DNA of 52,108 bases. It comes from Phycisphaerae bacterium (GTDB lineage Bacteria; Planctomycetota; Phycisphaerae; Sedimentisphaerales; UBA12454). Shown piece by piece: positions 9,974 through 52,108 of the stretch (positions within the stretch are counted from its first letter, which is position 1; each line of letters opens with the position of its first letter). The stretch spans positions 1 to 52,108 of the forward strand of contig JAPLMW010000065.1 in assembly GCA_026386845.1 (NCBI GenBank). The letters run 5' to 3'. The translations under genes were made by a program, and so were the position numbers. The notes under the pieces were generated by a model. That model saw only the letters and a program-made list of their open reading frames with translations. It was not told the origin of the DNA and did not search any database.

Positions 9974-10915
9974 ATGACAACCCCGAAAAAGGAAAAACCA
10001 AAACATCTCGGCAGGGGACTGGAGTCTCTAATAGGTCCTATAACAAATATCGGACAAGAAAACTCCGATATGTCTTTGGGTGATAATCTATCTAACTTCC
10101 CTGTTGACAAGGAGTTACAGAATAATTTTATTGAAATACGTTTAAACGAGATAGACCCAAACCCGTATCAGCCGCGGAAAAACTGGGAAGTCCTGCAACT
10201 TAAAGAGCTTTCGGACTCCATCAGAGAAAATGGTGTTATTCAGCCAATAGTAGTCAGGCGGAAGGGCGGCAGATTTGAGATTGTGGCAGGGGAGCGGAGA
10301 TTTCGAGCTGCTCAAATTGCGGAAATTGGCAAGATACCGGCAATGGTCAGAACGGCAGATGATTCTGAAATGCTGGCTCTGGCTTTGGTGGAAAATATTC
10401 ACAGAGCGGATTTGAATCCGATTGAGAAGGCAAAAGCCTATCAGAATTTTATGGAGACTTTCGGCCTGACACAGGAACAGGCTTCGCAAAAACTCGGCCA
10501 GGACCGCTCGGTTGTCGCGAATTACATTCGGCTGCTTAATCTCCCCGCTGAAGTAAAACAGATGCTTGTCGATGGTTCTTTGGATATGGGACACGCAAGG
10601 GCGATACTCGCTCTGCCGACAGATGATTTGAGAAAGAGACTTGCCAATCGCGCACTGGCAGGGCGGTTGAGCGTCCGTGAAGTCGAGAGACTTGTAAGAC
10701 TTGCATTAAGTGAAAAAGATGAGACGAAGCAAAAACAGATAGTTGAAAAGCCCGCACATATAAGAGACCTTGAAGAAAAAATCAGGAGCAGGCTCGGCAC
10801 AAAAGTAAATATACAGGCAAGGAAAAACGGCCAGCGAGGAAGAATAGTTATAGAATTCTATTCACTCGATGAGTTTGACAGCATCACAGAAAAGCTCGGC
10901 GTTTCGTCGGAATAA
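9974..10915 (+). CDS. parB: Chromosome partitioning protein ParB
   Basis: 313 residues. A typical N-terminal tail KPKHLGRGLESLIG is followed by the ParB/Srx domain (IRLNEIDPNPYQPRKNW, then GERRFRAAQIAEIGKIPAMV with the CTP-binding box), a helix-turn-helix (LTQEQASQKLGQDRSVVANYIRLL) and a C-terminal dimerisation region. It binds parS as a CTP-dependent clamp and works with ParA. Start ATG follows AAAAAGGAGCTGTAT. No parA is adjacent: glyA lies on the other side of the parS region. The only ParA in the window is at 43763. Confidence 0.95.
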   Translation: MTTPKKEKPKHLGRGLESLIGPITNIGQENSDMSLGDNLSNFPVDKELQNNFIEIRLNEIDPNPYQPRKNWEVLQLKELSDSIRENGVIQPIVVRRKGGRFEIVAGERRFRAAQIAEIGKIPAMVRTADDSEMLALALVENIHRADLNPIEKAKAYQNFMETFGLTQEQASQKLGQDRSVVANYIRLLNLPAEVKQMLVDGSLDMGHARAILALPTDDLRKRLANRALAGRLSVREVERLVRLALSEKDETKQKQIVEKPAHIRDLEEKIRSRLGTKVNIQARKNGQRGRIVIEFYSLDEFDSITEKLGVSSE

Positions 10916-43762: not shown

Positions 43763-45028
43763 ATGAGAACGGTAGCGATAATAAATCAGAAAGGCGGCTG
43801 CGGAAAGACAACTGTTGCGATAAATCTTGCCAGTGCCTTGGCGGCTGAAAACAAAAAAACTTTACTCGTTGATATAGACCCGCAGGGACATTGTGCGGTC
43901 GGCCTTGCTGTGCCGGAAGAACAGATTGAGCAGAGCATCTATGATGTGTTGATAAGCTCCCGCCGCGGAGAGCCTGTCAAGCCCACAGAGATTCTATGGG
44001 AAATCGGCGATAACTTCGAGCTTGCGCCGGCAAGCATCGACCTGGCCGCGTTTGAACAGCAAACAAATGGCGTTACTGACCGTGAAAACTGCCTTAAAGA
44101 TGTTCTTAAAACCGTCGAACAGGACTTCGATTATGTCGTTGTCGATTGTCCTCCCGCCGTAGGAATTTTAACATTCAACGCCATTAGAGCCTCCACCGAT
44201 GTTATTGTGCCGGTGGAAACAGGATATTTCTCGCTGCACGGCCTGAGCAGACAGCTTGATACGCTCAGCGTTTTATGCAAGCAATGCTCGCAGCACATAA
44301 ACGTTATGGTGCTTGCGAGTATGTATGATATCCGAACCAAGATGGGCAGAGAAATTCTCGCCGACCTTCGAAAGCACTTCTCCGGCAGAATGTTCCAGAC
44401 CGTTGTTAATTTCAATACCAAGCTTAAGGAAGCCGCCAGTCTCGGCCAGCCAATCTGCGAGTATGACCCTGCCAGCAGGGGACACAAGGATTTTCAGTGC
44501 CTTGCTCAGGAGCTGATAGCGACCGATACGATGGTCGAGCCGAAACAAATCGCAAGTGCGATTCAAAAAACAGAACCCCAAACGCAAATTGTTGAGAAAT
44601 CGCAGGATAGAAAGGAAATCGTCAAAAACTTCGACGATAAGCTCGATGCTATCAGTTCATCGGCACAGGAGTTGATGGCAAGTCTTAACGAACCGCAGCC
44701 GAAAACCAGGGCGAAGATTATGCGCGATATTGACGGCAGATTAAACGATTTTTACGGCACAAGGCAGTTCGGCGGCGCGGTTAAATTCGTTACGCTTTAT
44801 CCGCGAGCCAGAAGCGTTCAGATTGCGGGAGATTTCAACAACTGGCAGCCGCAGCAGACAACTATGAAACCCGCCCAGGACGGCAAATGGGAACTTGCTC
44901 TGACGCTTGCCCCGGGCAAGTATCGTTATCGTATGGTTGTTGACGGCCAGTGGCAGCAGGACCCCTACAACGAGCAGGTGGAAATGAATCCCTTCGGCGA
45001 ATTCAACTCCGTCCTCGAAGTCAAATAG
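43763..45028 (+). CDS. ParA-family ATPase fused to a C-terminal CBM48 glycogen-binding domain
   Basis: 421 residues. Residues 1-250 are a ParA/Soj-type ATPase with deviant Walker A INQKGGCGKTTVAINLASA (Lys10 and GKT), LLVDIDPQGHCAVGL (Walker A'), YVVVDCPPAVGI (Walker B) and the NVMVLASMYD region. Residues about 250-330 are a charged linker. Residues about 335-421 are a CBM48/AMPK-type glycogen-binding domain: VQIAGDFNNWQPQQTTMK, GKWELALTLAPGKYRYRMVV, DGQWQQDPYN. Start ATG, with a weak ribosome site. It stands alone, divergent from the exopolysaccharide operon. It is 33 kb from parB. Confidence 0.93.
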   Translation: MRTVAIINQKGGCGKTTVAINLASALAAENKKTLLVDIDPQGHCAVGLAVPEEQIEQSIYDVLISSRRGEPVKPTEILWEIGDNFELAPASIDLAAFEQQTNGVTDRENCLKDVLKTVEQDFDYVVVDCPPAVGILTFNAIRASTDVIVPVETGYFSLHGLSRQLDTLSVLCKQCSQHINVMVLASMYDIRTKMGREILADLRKHFSGRMFQTVVNFNTKLKEAASLGQPICEYDPASRGHKDFQCLAQELIATDTMVEPKQIASAIQKTEPQTQIVEKSQDRKEIVKNFDDKLDAISSSAQELMASLNEPQPKTRAKIMRDIDGRLNDFYGTRQFGGAVKFVTLYPRARSVQIAGDFNNWQPQQTTMKPAQDGKWELALTLAPGKYRYRMVVDGQWQQDPYNEQVEMNPFGEFNSVLEVK

Positions 45029-45035
45029 CCGTCCG

Positions 45036-46799
45036 CTACGGCTTCCAGATTACCCTGTAAAGCGTCTTTTCGCGCACAGCAAGCGCCTCAAATCCTCCAC
45101 CGAAAGCCGTGGGAAGGCAGACAATTCCTTCATACTTCGGCCCGGCTTTGTTATCAACAACAATCACTTGTTTGTCGCCTCTCATCGCCGCATAAGCCGC
45201 GTGATTGCCATCAGGACTAAACACTATCGCACCTTCCAGAATTTCATCGTATGCCGGACCGTTTTGGTCATCGATAACTACCTGCCATCTATTATCTTTC
45301 TGCGCTGCGTATGCTGTATGCTTGCTGTCCGCGCTGAAAACAGGATAGCCTTTTCTGATAGCATCGTATTCCGCTCCGGCATTGCCGTCAACAACGACAA
45401 CCTGCTTGTAGTTATTCTTGGCTGCATAAGCCGCGCGATTGCTGTCGGGACTGAAAACAACCGTGCCGTCCAGAACACTATCGTACGGTGACCCGGCCCG
45501 GCCATCAACAATAACCTGCCATTTGCCGCCTTTCCACACCGCGTATGCTATATGTTTGCTGTCAGGACTAAAAATGGGAGTGCCTTCTTTAATGTCGTCA
45601 TATTCCACCCCGGCATTGCCGTCAATGACAAGCTGCCACTTATCACCGTTCTTGGCTGCGTACGCCATACGATTGCCGTTCGCGCTGAAAACGACAGAAC
45701 CTTGTTTGATAATGTCATATTCCGGCCCGGCGATGTTATTATCAACAATAACAATTTGCTTGTAGTTGCTGTTTCTGGCCACATACGCAATGTGGTTGCT
45801 GTCGGGACTAAAAACCATCGTGCCTTCCGGAATATTGTCATAAGCCGGTCCGTTCTGGTCGTCAATGATAACCTGCCATTTGTTGTTCTTCTTTGCTCTG
45901 TATGCGATGTGTTTGCCGTTTGGACTAAAGACAGGAAAGTCTTTTCCGATTTCGCTGTATACCGCTCCTGCCAGGCCATCGATTACTACCTGCCGGTTGA
46001 TGCCTTTGCGGCCTATGTATGTTACGCATTTGCCGGTCGGACCAAGCATAGCAGAACTGATATCGTCATACACCGGCCCTGCCTGACCATCAACTGCCAC
46101 CAGCTTTTGAGCGCCCAGCCACACTATATAGGCCACGTGATTACTGTCGGAGCTGAAGGCCGGTGCACTTCTCATTGTTAGAAGGTCGTATTCCGGCCCT
46201 GCCTGACCATCGACAACAAATATCGTTTTCTTATTCTTCTGCGCCATATACGCCACGCGCTTGCTGTTCGGGCTGAAAGCAATAACACCGACGCCCTCGT
46301 ATACCGGACTGGCGACGCCGTCGATAATAACCTGTCTTGCGCTGCCGTTTTGGACTGCGTATGCCAGGTGGTTGCTGTCAGGACTAAAAATTACAGAGCC
46401 TTGTCCGACCGTCTCGTGCACCGGTCCGGCATTGCCATCGACAATGACCTGGAATTTTCCATCTTTCGCCCCGACGACCAAAGCTATATGCCGCCGGTCG
46501 GGGCTGCGGACGATATCAAATATCTGGTCGGGTAACGTCCCCAGCGCAACTTCGGTAAAATTGCCGGTCTTGTTTGGTTCATTGAGCCTGGCAGGTTTGT
46601 TCGGCTCAACTGAATTCGCCTGCCCTGAGCCTGCCTGTGGTGAGCGTAGTCGAACTGCTTGTGGTGAGCTTGCCTGCACTGAGCTCTGTCGAGGGGTCGA
46701 ACCAGCCGAATTCGCCGAAGTCTGCCCGTAAGACGCCGCCGCTGCAAGTAAAAATACCGTTACAACCGCCATATACAGAACACATTTACAGCCATTCAT
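45036..46799 (-). CDS. Secreted PD40/WD40-like beta-propeller protein
   Basis: 587 residues with a signal peptide (MNGCKCVLYMAVVTVFLLAA). After a Ser/Gln-rich linker (about 28-75, partly encoded by REP-like repeats at 46621-46703) come about eleven repeats of roughly 42 residues in the form FSPDSNHIAYVA-KG-KWQVIVDG-AGP-YD-I--G. Each unit has a PD40-type SPDS(N/K) turn. It probably forms one or two beta-propellers in the envelope. It starts 15 nt after the YbbR gene end, with AAGGAGT as ribosome site, so the two are co-transcribed. Confidence 0.82.
   Translation of the reverse strand: MNGCKCVLYMAVVTVFLLAAAASYGQTSANSAGSTPRQSSVQASSPQAVRLRSPQAGSGQANSVEPNKPARLNEPNKTGNFTEVALGTLPDQIFDIVRSPDRRHIALVVGAKDGKFQVIVDGNAGPVHETVGQGSVIFSPDSNHLAYAVQNGSARQVIIDGVASPVYEGVGVIAFSPNSKRVAYMAQKNKKTIFVVDGQAGPEYDLLTMRSAPAFSSDSNHVAYIVWLGAQKLVAVDGQAGPVYDDISSAMLGPTGKCVTYIGRKGINRQVVIDGLAGAVYSEIGKDFPVFSPNGKHIAYRAKKNNKWQVIIDDQNGPAYDNIPEGTMVFSPDSNHIAYVARNSNYKQIVIVDNNIAGPEYDIIKQGSVVFSANGNRMAYAAKNGDKWQLVIDGNAGVEYDDIKEGTPIFSPDSKHIAYAVWKGGKWQVIVDGRAGSPYDSVLDGTVVFSPDSNRAAYAAKNNYKQVVVVDGNAGAEYDAIRKGYPVFSADSKHTAYAAQKDNRWQVVIDDQNGPAYDEILEGAIVFSPDGNHAAYAAMRGDKQVIVVDNKAGPKYEGIVCLPTAFGGGFEALAVREKTLYRVIWKP
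46621..46703. repeat. REP-like repeat cluster in the propeller gene linker
   Basis: Several degenerate copies of CCTGAGC/GGTGAGC...AGTCGAA lie head to tail here, in frame, coding for the peptide STPRQSSVQASSPQAVRLRS. The position between the signal peptide and the propeller tolerates it. Confidence 0.6.
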
Positions 46800-46814: not shown

Positions 46815-47819
46815 TTACTCGGGCGGCCGGTTGCCGTCTGCCACCGGCACAAGCCTGAACTTCGCCTCCACAGGGTCGCCTTTGAGGCGAATTTTTTCTT
46901 CGCGAACATATTGTATCGGAAAATTATACGTCACCTGCCGGGTTACTTCAGGCTTGCCTACATCGTCGTCCTGTATCTCAAGCAGAGTTTCAAACCCTCT
47001 TTCTTCATAAGCGGTCTTTGCCTCTTCGGTCGCTATTATTGTTATGCTGCCGATTTCAGGCCGTTTGATAAATTCCACCTTATATTCGCCGGCGAGATTC
47101 GCGCTGAAAATAAAGCCCAGCGTGCCGCTGATTGTGTATTGCTTCATATCTTCCTGTGTTATCGGCAATTCAACCTTCACCGCAGTATCAGCGTATCTTA
47201 TTTCGCCGACGGCAAATTCAACATAAGGCTTTTTGTCGATAGTCCCGCCGCGAGCCTGTTTCTTCTCCGCCGGCGTTGCTATTTTTACCTCCGCATCCGT
47301 AACCTGTTCAGGCACAAGCATAGTAATAACATCCGGCGTTATATGGGCGCCGGCGATTTCGCTGTCCGTTTCATCCACGCACTTTATCGGCAGCGTCTTT
47401 TCCTTCAGCTCCACCACTTTTATTCGCTGCAGTTTGTCCGGCCTTGCCGCCCTGACAGTCAGTCCGTATTCCTGAATCTTTTTGCTCTCCGCGACAAACT
47501 TTCTCATGTCCGGCAAAGTATATTCGCCCGCGGTGTTCATATTCTGTTGCTCCGCGTCGAACATAACCTCAAATTTTTCCTTGCCGCCTTCTATCTTTTT
47601 GGAAAGTTCGCGCACCTTTGCCACCGGCCCGCTCAGGTCGGCTTTTATCTGTATTTCCGGCTTGCCTTCCAGCGTAATCCACAGTTTGGGGTTTGCCTTG
47701 CTTGCGGTGATGGTTATCGTCTGGTTATTGAGGTTTTCGTCAAGGCTCAAATCCGCCCAAACCCATATCAGGCAGGTTATAAATATCACAAGAACCGCTT
47801 TTTTGATTTTGGCAAACAT
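46815..47819 (-). CDS. cdaR: YbbR-domain protein, CdaR-like
   Basis: 334 residues: one N-terminal transmembrane helix (KKAVLVIFITCLIWVWADLS) and an extracytoplasmic region of YbbR-like repeats (about 80-150, 160-240, 250-330), beta-strand rich with motifs such as VRAARPDKLQRIKVVELKEK. YbbR/CdaR proteins regulate the diadenylate cyclase CdaA and are usually encoded just after it. Here the 3' end of cdaA is 3.8 kb away on the same strand, with the methyltransferase cassette in between. No ribosome binding site is visible; see the promoter at 47828-47855. Confidence 0.8.
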   Translation of the reverse strand: MFAKIKKAVLVIFITCLIWVWADLSLDENLNNQTITITASKANPKLWITLEGKPEIQIKADLSGPVAKVRELSKKIEGGKEKFEVMFDAEQQNMNTAGEYTLPDMRKFVAESKKIQEYGLTVRAARPDKLQRIKVVELKEKTLPIKCVDETDSEIAGAHITPDVITMLVPEQVTDAEVKIATPAEKKQARGGTIDKKPYVEFAVGEIRYADTAVKVELPITQEDMKQYTISGTLGFIFSANLAGEYKVEFIKRPEIGSITIIATEEAKTAYEERGFETLLEIQDDDVGKPEVTRQVTYNFPIQYVREEKIRLKGDPVEAKFRLVPVADGNRPPE

Positions 47820-48036: not shown

Positions 48037-49182
48037 ATGTCTAAAATATCTAATAAAACCCACGATGGAAAACACCCTCAACAGTATATTGACATAGAAA
48101 AGCTCCACTTGGATGCAGATAACCCACGACTTCCAGAGAATATACAAGGCCAAAATGAAGCAGAACTGCTAAAATCACTTTACAAAGGTTTTAATTTAAA
48201 TGAACTTGTCGATTCTATGAGCCAAAATGGTTATTTTGATGAAGAGCCTTTGGTTGTAATTCCGCGAAACGTGCCCGGCAAGTTATCCAAGGCTGATATT
48301 TCTTCGACGGAATTCGAGGAGTTTATAAAAAAGGACACAACCACCTTTACAGTGGTTGAGGGAAACCGCCGGCTTGCGGCTGCCAAGTTACTAATAGATC
48401 CAAAGTTAAGAAGCCAACTCAATATCAAGCAGTGGCAAGAAGTACTACCAGCGATTATTGACGATTTGAAACTTTTACCCGCTATCGTTTACCCCAAAAG
48501 ATCAGATGTAATTCCTTATATGGGAGTACGCCATATTGTAGGCATACAAAAATGGGGTTCTTATGCAAAAGCACGATACATTGCAAGGTTAATCGACCAA
48601 GGAAAAACTCTTCAAGAAGTGGAAACACAAATTGCAGACAGTCAAGGGTCGGTAAGGAAAAATTATATTAGCTATAAGCTTCTTCAACAAGCCAGAGATG
48701 AGTTTGATTATGACACAAAATCGGCGGAGGAAGGTAAATTTTCATTATTAATACTTGCCATTGGGCAAGGAAAAATTAAGCGTTATTTAGGACTACCAAC
48801 TAGCCTAAAAGACACAAGCCCAAGTGCTCCAGTTCCCAAAGAAAAAATTAAAAGCTTGCAAAACTTAACGAGTTGGGTGTTTGGTGATGATCGGAATTCA
48901 CCGGTCATCGGGGAGTCGCGAGATATCACAGACTATTTATCTAGTGTTGTAGAGAGCCCAGACGCACTTAAACACCTTGAGCGAACACGAAACCTCCAAG
49001 AAGCCTACGACTTAAGCGATGGGGAAGAACAAATGATTCTTAGATATTTGGCGTCTATAAATAGTAAGTTGCAAACGGTTTTAGGATTAGCGCATCTTCA
49101 CAAAACAGCAGATGTTATTAGTGAGGTGGAAAAGTGTGCTGAAACAGCGAAACAACTGCTGAAAACAGTGAAAGAAAAGTAA
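48037..49182 (+). CDS. ParB/Srx-like domain protein of a modification cassette
   Basis: 381 residues. The N-terminal half has a ParB/Sulfiredoxin-type domain: YIDIEKLHLDADNPRLPEN, LVDSMSQNGYFDEEPLVVI and VVEGNRRLAAAKLL (EGNRR at 108-112). The C-terminal half is helical and unlike chromosomal ParB; no parS partner role is implied. Domains of this kind act as nucleases, CTPases or DNA-sequence sensors in several defence systems. RBS AAGGA. Its stop overlaps the next start as TAATG, so translation is coupled. Confidence 0.8.
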   Translation: MSKISNKTHDGKHPQQYIDIEKLHLDADNPRLPENIQGQNEAELLKSLYKGFNLNELVDSMSQNGYFDEEPLVVIPRNVPGKLSKADISSTEFEEFIKKDTTTFTVVEGNRRLAAAKLLIDPKLRSQLNIKQWQEVLPAIIDDLKLLPAIVYPKRSDVIPYMGVRHIVGIQKWGSYAKARYIARLIDQGKTLQEVETQIADSQGSVRKNYISYKLLQQARDEFDYDTKSAEEGKFSLLILAIGQGKIKRYLGLPTSLKDTSPSAPVPKEKIKSLQNLTSWVFGDDRNSPVIGESRDITDYLSSVVESPDALKHLERTRNLQEAYDLSDGEEQMILRYLASINSKLQTVLGLAHLHKTADVISEVEKCAETAKQLLKTVKEK

Positions 49183-50033
49183 TGATAAGAATTTCAGATC
49201 CAAATTCAACCACCTTCGTTTCGGACTGGATAGAACTGTATATCGCTGTAACTGGCGAGTTTATTTCCAAAACGAAGCTCAGCCAACTGCTTGAAAGAGA
49301 CACAGGAGAAGAGCCAAAGGAATCTTTTATTTGTGATGTTTGGACAGAACTAGAATACAGAAAGAAATTATATAATACGTGTCCATTCCAAATCGATAGT
49401 CTTGCCATAGAATCTAATGCTAGTTTTGCACCAAATAGCGCATATTTGGCCTGTTTGATCATGGTTATCTTCGGCGCTGAAAACGGTTCACAGAGCACCT
49501 CCAAGCTTTTCGAAAGACTCGTCTGTAAAGCCATTCAAAAGTATATTTCTGGGGAAGCTGTTGTCTTTGGATGGCCTGTTATAAAAGGTGAAAAAACTTC
49601 AATTCGAGACAGAATTGTTGATTTATCTGTCAGGCTTAATGAAAGATATGTAGAATCACCAGCAGAAAAGTACAAAGACCGTGGAGTGGATGTAGTTGCA
49701 TGGAAACCTTTTTTAGAAAAACCACCAAGACCAAGTCAAGTAGTCATACTGCTTCAATGTGCTGCTGGCCAAGGCTGGCGAAGCAAGACTGGTGATTTGC
49801 CCTTGCGTGCATGGGAGCAGTATATACATTGGTCTTGCAATCCCATCAAAGCATTTGCAGTACCTTATATAATTCCTAAAAGAGATTGGCATGATGTGTC
49901 TAAAGAAGGTGGGATATTATTTGATAGGATTCGAATAATAAACCTGATTTGCAGTGCTGCAGACGATAAGATACTTGACAGAGAATTAGCCTCATGGGTA
50001 AAAACCAAGTTAAAAGAGTATGAGATTCGTTGA
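49182..50033 (+). CDS. Putative restriction-endonuclease-like protein (variant PD-(D/E)XK?)
   Basis: 283 residues with no family I can name firmly. The middle shows a pattern like PD-(D/E)XK nucleases: a helix with Glu111 (LFERLVCKAIQKYISG), then RGVDVVAWKPF with Asp170, then a strand QVVILLQCAAGQGW where the usual E-x-K is Q192-C-A. This form (D... then QCA-G--W) suggests a nuclease with an altered active site. It is translationally coupled to both neighbours (1-nt and 14-nt overlaps), so it most likely acts with the methyltransferase. Confidence 0.55.
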   Translation: MIRISDPNSTTFVSDWIELYIAVTGEFISKTKLSQLLERDTGEEPKESFICDVWTELEYRKKLYNTCPFQIDSLAIESNASFAPNSAYLACLIMVIFGAENGSQSTSKLFERLVCKAIQKYISGEAVVFGWPVIKGEKTSIRDRIVDLSVRLNERYVESPAEKYKDRGVDVVAWKPFLEKPPRPSQVVILLQCAAGQGWRSKTGDLPLRAWEQYIHWSCNPIKAFAVPYIIPKRDWHDVSKEGGILFDRIRIINLICSAADDKILDRELASWVKTKLKEYEIR

Positions 50034-51282
50034 CTTATTTGCAGGGTTAGGCGGGTTTCATTTGGCCGCAAAAGGTCTGGGGGGACAGTGTGTCTTTGCT
50101 TGTGAGATAGACGAAAAGCTCCGCACAAATTATGAAGCTAACTTTGGAATTAACCCAGCAGGTGATATAAAGAAAGTTAATCCCAAAGAAGTCCCACATC
50201 ACGATTTGCTCTGCGCGGGTTTTCCTTGTCAGCCTTTTTCCAAAGCCGGAGACCAGATGGGCTGGAAGGATGCTGTCCGGGGTACAGTATTTTTCAATAT
50301 TGTTGAGATTTTGCGGCATCATCAGCCGAAGTTTGTGGTATTAGAGAATGTTGCGCATTTTGTCAAACACGACAAGGGTAATACTTATACCAAGGTTAAA
50401 ACGGCTTTGGAGAAGTTGGGATACGATGTGAAACATGAACAACTCTCGCCACATAGGTTTGGCGTACCACAAATAAGGGAAAGAATGTATATGATTGGGC
50501 AGCTTGGAGGATTAAATGGATTCCAATGGCCCAAGCCACAGACAACAGGTGATGAGCTTTCAGTACGAGATATTTTAGACGAGAATCCTTCTGACGCTAT
50601 TGGTTTGAGTGAACAGGTAACGAATTGCCTAAATACATGGCAGGAATTTATCGAATTATTTCCAAAGAAAGAAGAGTTGCCGTCCTTTCCTATCTGGAGC
50701 ATGGAATTCAAGGCAACATATCCTTATAAACAGGATTCTTTATACGAGGTTGAATTAGAAAAACTCCGCAAGAAGCGAGGTAGTTTCGGAAAAACGCTTA
50801 ATTACAGGTTTAGAGAGAATTTGATGGCACATCTGCCAAGCTATGCAAGATACCGAGAGAACTCATTTCCCGACTGGAAACAGATATTCATAAAACACAA
50901 TAGAGATCTTTACGAAAATCATAAGAAAAAGATTGACCGTTGGCTGGACAAGATTCAGAAGTTTCCCCCAAGTTTGCAGAAGCTTGAATGGAATTGCAAA
51001 GGAGGGGAACGTAATATCTGGAATTATATGATACAGTTCAGAGCATCTGGCGTAAGAATTAAACGCCCGACAACATCACCATCATTAGTTGCTATGACCA
51101 CTACTCAAGTTCCTATTATCGGATGGGAAAAGCGTTACATGACGGTGAGAGAATGTGCCCGGCTGCAATCAATGGATAAACTAAAGCACTTTCCTGCTGG
51201 TTCTGCAGCTATGGCTGCACTTGGAAATGCGGTTAATGTAAAAGTTGCAAACCTTGTTCTTAAGAGCCTCTTAAAAGGATGA
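50020..51282 (+). CDS. C5-cytosine DNA methyltransferase
   Basis: 420 residues with the full set of C5-methyltransferase motifs: I DLFAGLGGF, IV GFPCQPFSKAG (catalytic Cys70), VI VLENV (Glu109), VIII QIRERMYMIG, IX RECARLQSMDKL and X GNAVNVKVA. The target recognition domain lies at about 170-340. It methylates cytosine at C5 in a sequence not predictable here. It overlaps the preceding gene by 14 nt, and with the ParB-like and nuclease-like genes it forms a compact modification or restriction cassette. Confidence 0.95.
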   Translation: MRFVDLFAGLGGFHLAAKGLGGQCVFACEIDEKLRTNYEANFGINPAGDIKKVNPKEVPHHDLLCAGFPCQPFSKAGDQMGWKDAVRGTVFFNIVEILRHHQPKFVVLENVAHFVKHDKGNTYTKVKTALEKLGYDVKHEQLSPHRFGVPQIRERMYMIGQLGGLNGFQWPKPQTTGDELSVRDILDENPSDAIGLSEQVTNCLNTWQEFIELFPKKEELPSFPIWSMEFKATYPYKQDSLYEVELEKLRKKRGSFGKTLNYRFRENLMAHLPSYARYRENSFPDWKQIFIKHNRDLYENHKKKIDRWLDKIQKFPPSLQKLEWNCKGGERNIWNYMIQFRASGVRIKRPTTSPSLVAMTTTQVPIIGWEKRYMTVRECARLQSMDKLKHFPAGSAAMAALGNAVNVKVANLVLKSLLKG

Positions 51283-51507: not shown

Positions 51508-51631
51508 TGCCTGCCCTGCCTGTCCCGAGCATGGTCGAGGGAAGCGAATTTATCCTGAGCATCGTCGAAGGAAGTCGAAGGGTTCACTTTTAACTTTTCA
51601 CTGCCTTGCCCTGAGCGGAGTCGAAGGGGTT
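51508..51631. repeat. REP-like cluster at the 3' end of cdaA
   Basis: At least three degenerate units: GTCCCGAGCATGGTCGAGG (51522-51540), CCTGAGCATCGTCGAAGG (from 51554) and TGCCCTGAGCGGAGTCGAAG (from 51607). The last contains the direct repeat also found at 47885-47897, and it codes for the final residues of CdaA. Confidence 0.7.
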
Positions 51632-52108
51632 GTTTCTTTCTTTGCTGCCCCTCGCCGCAGTTTGGACATCACGCTGGCGTCAATAAACATACTCGTCAGT
51701 CTCTTGCGCAGTTCTTCTTCGGTTACGGGCCGTTCGAGTTTGCCGTCTTCGGCTATACTCAGAGTTCCCGTTTCTTCGCTGACCACTATCGCGATGGCGT
51801 CGCTGCCTGTGGTTATGCCTATTGCCGCTCTGTGTCTTGAGCCTAATGCTCCGCCGACAAGGCTGGCTTCCGCCAGCGGCAGTTGTACGCGCGCAGCTAC
51901 GATTCTATCGCCGTGTATTACCACTGCGAGGTCATGCAGGGGTGAGCCGGGGTGGAATATTGTCTTGAGCAGTGCCGCTTTGACTTTCGCGTCTAATTGC
52001 ACGCCCATTTCGGTAAATTCGCCTAAGGCTACCTGTCTTTCGAGAACGATGATTGCCCCGACCTTTTTCTCGGAAAGGGTAACAACTGCGCTTATTATCT
52101 CCTCGACT
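51598..52108 (-). CDS. cdaA: Diadenylate cyclase CdaA, 3' part (5' end outside window)
   Basis: About 169 C-terminal residues are visible; the frame stays open to the window edge (EKKVGAIIVLERQVALGEF precedes the internal ATG at 52008). This is the DisA_N catalytic domain: LDAKVKAALLKTIFHPGSPL, LGSRHRAAIGIT with the RHR motif, and IAIVVSEETGTLSI. It makes c-di-AMP from two ATP. The usual DGA motif reads DLA (SPLHDLAVVIHG). The C-terminal TTPSTPLRARQ is translated from a REP-like repeat. The N-terminal membrane helices expected for CdaA lie beyond the window. Confidence 0.9.
   Translation of the reverse strand, partial: VEEIISAVVTLSEKKVGAIIVLERQVALGEFTEMGVQLDAKVKAALLKTIFHPGSPLHDLAVVIHGDRIVAARVQLPLAEASLVGGALGSRHRAAIGITTGSDAIAIVVSEETGTLSIAEDGKLERPVTEEELRKRLTSMFIDASVMSKLRRGAAKKETTPSTPLRARQ

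Follow-up and report, generated by a model that had tools for sequence, protein, structure and literature searches.

Architecture of the ParA-CBM48 fusion

The window, by which we mean the whole stretch of DNA analysed (52,108 nucleotides from a Phycisphaerae bacterium), carries a gene whose product joins a ParA ATPase to a carbohydrate-binding domain. The gene and the parts of its product are as follows.

43763..45028, + strand: parA-CBM48 fusion gene, an open reading frame with an ATG start (421 aa)
43763..44527, + strand: ParA/Soj ATPase domain, residues 1-255 (Pfam AAA_31, model match to Soj, conservation)
44528..44752, + strand: variable helical linker, residues 256-330 (structure model, low conservation)
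44753..45025, + strand: CBM48 / AMPK-beta glycogen-binding-type domain, residues 331-421 (Pfam, structure matches, conservation)

Pfam assigned AAA_31 to residues 1-180 of the fusion (E 1.7e-48), AMPK1_CBM to residues 349-421 (E 2.5e-13, 50.5 bits vs a cut-off of 26.8) and CBM_48 to residues 340-402 (E 1.6e-9, 38.4 bits vs a cut-off of 22.4). In a sequence search of the PDB, residues 1-256 matched ParA/Soj (E 4e-51) and residues 349-421 matched AMPK beta (E 4.6e-7). The preliminary description had read the gene as an intact ParA ATPase with a C-terminal CBM48/AMPK-beta domain, and these PDB matches and above-cut-off Pfam assignments bear it out. Between the two domains the structure model predicted helices at residues 239-269, 282-306 and 315-328, mostly with low pLDDT. 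Because the full-length model returned structure matches to ParA only, the CBM was folded separately. A plasmid search with the fusion gave matches confined to the ParA part.

The Walker A motif of the fusion is the deviant NQKGGCGKTT with the signature lysine K10, and both the Walker B residue D128 and D39 are present. K10, K15 and D128 were found in all of 128 fusions, and D39 in 127 of them. The fusion shares these motifs with the ParA/Soj partition ATPases, and the model of the ParA part superimposed well on Soj (Z 33.1, 1.9 Å over 247 residues). By alignment and a 29-residue spacing, R191 and K220 of the fusion are equivalent to R189 and R218 of B. subtilis Soj, its non-specific DNA-binding arginines. 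Position 191 is arginine in 113/128 fusions, and position 220 is lysine or arginine in 116/128. In Soj the R189E replacement abolished DNA binding (PMC10120649). Judged by these two positions, nucleoid binding by the fusion is plausible in most lineages. It cannot be universal, since some lineages have R191 or K220 swapped for acidic or small residues with the CBM retained. Family f5 (L016, L021-L023), for instance, has an acidic or other residue at position 191 and keeps K220 and all the CBM contacts; its members may use a surface other than the nucleoid. One further locus (L146:1-1143, genome G302) has KGGCAKTT as its Walker A motif (G14 to A) and intact CBM contacts.

The CBM alone was modelled with a pLDDT of 92.6. 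Its best Foldseek match was the glycogen-binding domain of AMPK beta1 (1z0m, 1.5e-7), and VIA aligned it with 1z0n at Z 12.9 and 1.6 Å over 80 residues. A profile built from 40 relatives likewise matched AMPK beta-2 at 7.4e-9, together with pullulanases and glycogen branching enzymes. The top VIA matches also include the CBM48 domains of feruloyl esterases, one of them solved with xylobiose. Domains of this family are thus able to bind glycans other than alpha-glucan, and the case for an alpha-glucan ligand is weakened to that extent.

The fusion CBM and the AMPK beta domain share their fold and the positions that contact sugar: in the alignment, W361, R390, W397 and N415 correspond to W100, K126, W133 and N150 of AMPK. 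There, Trp100 and Trp133 stack on glucose units, Lys126 and Asn150 form hydrogen bonds, and beta-cyclodextrin is contacted (PMC9788615), while in the plant protein PTST starch binding was lost once the matching tryptophans were mutated (PMC4339375). The two domains differ in that K126 is replaced by R, L146 by F or Y and T148 mostly by E, and in that the AMPK domain sits in a kinase complex whereas the fusion CBM is joined to ParA. Among the 128 fusions, W361 was found in 126, R390 in 127, W397 in 124 and N415 in 122. In 42 non-redundant members the contact positions had a mean entropy of 0.32, against 1.83 across the domain (p about 0.0008), a test of conservation and not of binding, in which some contact residues are possibly kept for structure. 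One or both tryptophans are lost at L019, L151 and L170. The second of these (L151:962-2401, genome G111) is a degenerate fusion on a very long branch, in which D39 has changed to N and both tryptophans are gone, as if the two functions were decaying together. On the pattern of retained contacts, alpha-glucan binding by the fusion CBM is likely.

Distribution and conservation in the Phycisphaerae

A scan of GTDB representative contigs for relatives yielded 80 loci, and almost every one carries the fusion in full length, at 53-79 percent identity. All 80 are labelled Planctomycetota, mostly Phycisphaerae or Sedimentisphaerales. Two loci bear other labels, L049 Blastopirellula and L110 Kuenenia; because the tree places L049 inside the order, it is likely a mislabelled MAG. 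A survey of the fusion across planctomycetes, a check suggested in the preliminary description, found the architecture in 46 of the 61 sampled Phycisphaerae genomes. This count consists of 38 full-length fusions from a profile search and 8 from families f94 and f102, where a CBM_48 match within the same open reading frame was confirmed from the frame sequences. The fusion is missing from f96, f101 and G127. Outside the class, the sole fusion seen was that of G058, among 392 Planctomycetota genomes with the CBM read in the best thirty loci; phyla beyond Planctomycetota were covered by the close-relative contig scan only. Many genomes of the class also hold many short stand-alone CBM48 open frames of 97-279 aa with no assigned role (e.g. 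G198:C9:218396 and G300:C22:94449).

In a tree of 101 ParA domains, the fusions formed one clade (support 99/92) apart from the housekeeping ParAs of the class and the phylum, in a bootstrap that is not fully settled and with unsure places for the long branches G058 and G111. Five members of this clade lack the CBM (G220; G421, G340 and G405; G429) and are read as at least three later CBM losses, and L169, also inside the clade, has it. Mean pairwise identity was 0.45 for the CBM, 0.48 for the ATPase and 0.21 for the linker, so that the CBM has diverged at nearly the same slow pace as the ATPase. Measured against close relatives, pN/pS was 0.13-0.26 for the CBM, 0.09-0.17 for ParA and 0.35-0.52 for the linker; only the ranking of these values counts, because pS is near saturation. 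The comparison indicates that the tail of the fusion is under strong purifying selection. Taken at the level of sequence, the phylogeny and conservation argue that the fusion has a single, ancient origin, is conserved and is not a product of chance.

Gene neighbourhood and the orphan parB

In the window, the fusion gene lies beside homologues of Wza, Wzc and Wzy, which are not of the bcs type. From this adjacency the preliminary description had tied the fusion to exopolysaccharide, and the adjacency itself holds. The neighbourhood was absent from the 80 related loci: homologues of Wza and Wzy stood beside none of them (flanks up to 8 kb, many shorter), and a Wzc homologue appeared beside one as a weak partial match. 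Thus, the exopolysaccharide link is local to the window. The same comparison bears on a reading in which the fusion localises the adjoining exopolysaccharide machine in the manner of BcsQ, itself a ParA relative connected with polysaccharide. The three neighbours and a TIGR03371 match of 87.6 bits speak for this reading, but that score is far under the BcsQ cut-off of 157.85, the fusion has no cellulose operon, BcsQ carries no CBM, and the neighbours do not recur at related loci. We therefore consider it highly improbable, and an exopolysaccharide role was rejected as contradicted by the gene context at the related loci.

No conserved neighbour or adaptor gene was found across the related loci. 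A same-strand gene lies less than 150 bp upstream in 6/65 loci and less than 150 bp downstream in 9/65, and in relatives the fusion gene mostly forms a transcription unit by itself. The purE and Memo genes occur near the fusion in a minority of loci. Within the window, a repetitive PD40/TolB-like beta-propeller protein encoded at 45036-46799 (- strand) converges on the fusion gene, and no homologue of it was found beside related fusions. Further along are a diadenylate cyclase (DAC) gene (51598-52107, - strand) and an apparent YbbR-like gene (46815-47819, - strand), the latter named by eye with no Pfam match. These two genes, usually neighbours, are here split by three genes on the + strand (48037-51282) that encode a PADLOC PDC-M38A / PD-Lambda-5_A-like protein, an unknown protein and a C5 DNA methylase. 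The stretch looks like an inserted defence-type cassette.

The window also holds a parB gene.

9974-10915: complete canonical ParB (ParB_N, HTH_ParB, ParB_C), with no adjacent parA and 33 kb from the fusion

In the window no parB adjoins the fusion, and among the 80 related loci a single partial parB match (L071) was found. The genome of the window encodes a second, canonical ParA at C22:33077, adjoining an rsmE-like gene, which falls within the phylum-wide housekeeping clade. The fusion is thus not the only ParA of its genome, and a pairing with the orphan parB is not supported: another contig carries a ParA from the phylum-wide housekeeping clade, and since it is present the fusion need not partner ParB. 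These observations also weigh on the view that the gene encodes the usual chromosomal ParA, its tail being incidental. Its Soj-like sequence and the canonical ParB in the same window are in favour. The fusion shares with ParA/Soj the fold and catalytic motifs (Z 33) and the DNA-binding positions R191 and K220, and differs by its separate clade, its extra linker and CBM48 and its lack of a linked parB. With a separate housekeeping ParA in the genome and a tail under strong purifying selection, this view is very unlikely to be correct.

A putative glucan tether and its alternatives

Enzymes of cytosolic alpha-glucan metabolism are present in the window genome, none of them encoded near the fusion. 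They comprise an alpha-glucan phosphorylase and the products of two GT5 glycogen-synthase-like genes, each adjoining a GH57 gene (L193 and L194, on contigs C78 and C12 of G000, a small genome); one of the two clusters also encodes a glycogen debranching enzyme of archaeal type. The sole AMPK1_CBM domain of this genome is that of the fusion. At least one alpha-glucan enzyme family was found in 46/46 fusion genomes: GlgP in 41, and GT5, BE_C or GH57 in the other five; the fusion carriers G302 and G317 have full-length GH57. G127, of the same order and without the fusion, has none of the tested alpha-glucan enzyme markers. However, co-occurrence is weak evidence, because 14 of the 15 fusion-lacking class genomes also hold such enzymes, and f96 and f101 keep the enzymes without the fusion, so that the enzymes do not need it. 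In the class sample, apart from the G127 pattern, there was no useful correlation of the fusion with markers for GT5, GlgP, GlgE, CBM48 enzymes or GH57 branching enzymes. The enzyme pattern is consistent with an alpha-glucan ligand and does not prove it.

We tentatively favour the reading that the fusion is an ATP-switched tether of cytosolic alpha-glucan to the nucleoid, serving the even placement and inheritance of a carbon store, which we hold to be quite possible but short of probable. An ATP-bound dimer would grip the nucleoid through its ParA surface, while the CBM48 on its flexible linker would hold glycogen or a maltodextrin polymer as the cytosolic alpha-glucan. As ATP is bound and hydrolysed in turn, glucan particles would stay distributed across the nucleoid and would not end up pushed to one pole; dividing cells would then share out their carbon store, and the chromosome would be left unobstructed. 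Positioning of alpha-glucan can reasonably be inferred because the ParA ATPase is intact and the CBM48 ligand positions are retained, and we infer from this both positioning and inheritance of glucan by the fusion. The ParAs known to position cargo mostly depend on a stimulator that the cargo carries, and the tether reading is weakened because, unlike them, the fusion has no linked adaptor gene. In csrA mutants of E. coli, the glycogen that collects at the old pole keeps the chromosome out (PMC4836754). A carrier that distributes glucan across the nucleoid would prevent this, and a biological need for one is plausible.

A close comparison for such a tether is with McdA and the other ParA/MinD positioners of carboxysome and chemotaxis cargos, which have a related fold (6nop, Z 26.7) and whose supposed common logic is a cytosolic cargo spread over the nucleoid (PMC10241942, PMC6328274). 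McdA uses a separate adaptor, McdB, whereas the fusion carries the cargo-binding domain itself.

The main rival of the tether is an alpha-glucan-sensing regulatory switch, in which glucan on the CBM alters ParA dimerisation or ATPase and reports carbon status with no cargo moved; its targets could be, for instance, replication control (as with Soj and DnaA) or glycogen enzymes. AMPK reads glycogen through its CBM and is inhibited on binding (PMC9788615), the f5 members have lost the DNA-binding R191 with every CBM contact in place, and the gene stands alone without an adaptor, all of which suit a switch. The linker, however, varies both in its length and in its sequence (21 percent identity), which is unlike allosteric coupling, and R191 and a basic residue 220, kept in most members, point to nucleoid binding. 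We regard the switch as rather unlikely.

Less probable again is a scaffold, in which the CBM fixes the protein to glucan and a client enzyme or complex is brought there or positioned by the ParA part; the CBM could also make a protein contact. The precedent is PTST, a CBM48 protein without enzymatic activity that has helical regions and brings GBSS to starch (PMC4339375). PTST localises something on a glucan particle by means of CBM48 and helices, as the fusion would, and helices are predicted in the linker. PTST, unlike the fusion, has no ATPase and belongs to the plant plastid. Moreover, Walker motifs and D39 kept in practically all members go beyond the need of a passive scaffold, and no client gene is linked.

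A literature search, mainly of open-access papers, found no published description of a ParA-glycogen protein. The ParA/MinD proteins known so far have DNA, protein shells, membrane machines or protein clusters as their cargo. A storage polysaccharide, if true, would add a new cargo class, and a cargo hook built into the ATPase, if true, would break the usual rule of an ATPase with a separate adaptor. Still more tentatively than the tether itself, we propose a bacterial system that would actively position and partition storage polysaccharide throughout one class of Planctomycetota, in which an adaptor-free ParA would grip glycogen through its built-in CBM48. Whether bacteria control how their carbon stores are inherited can be put to the test through a single gene; the class has cultured members, and the two CBM tryptophans offer a ready mutant design. 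By analogy, the fusion suggests that Phycisphaerae may actively place or share out a glycogen-like store, as other bacteria do with DNA or carboxysomes.
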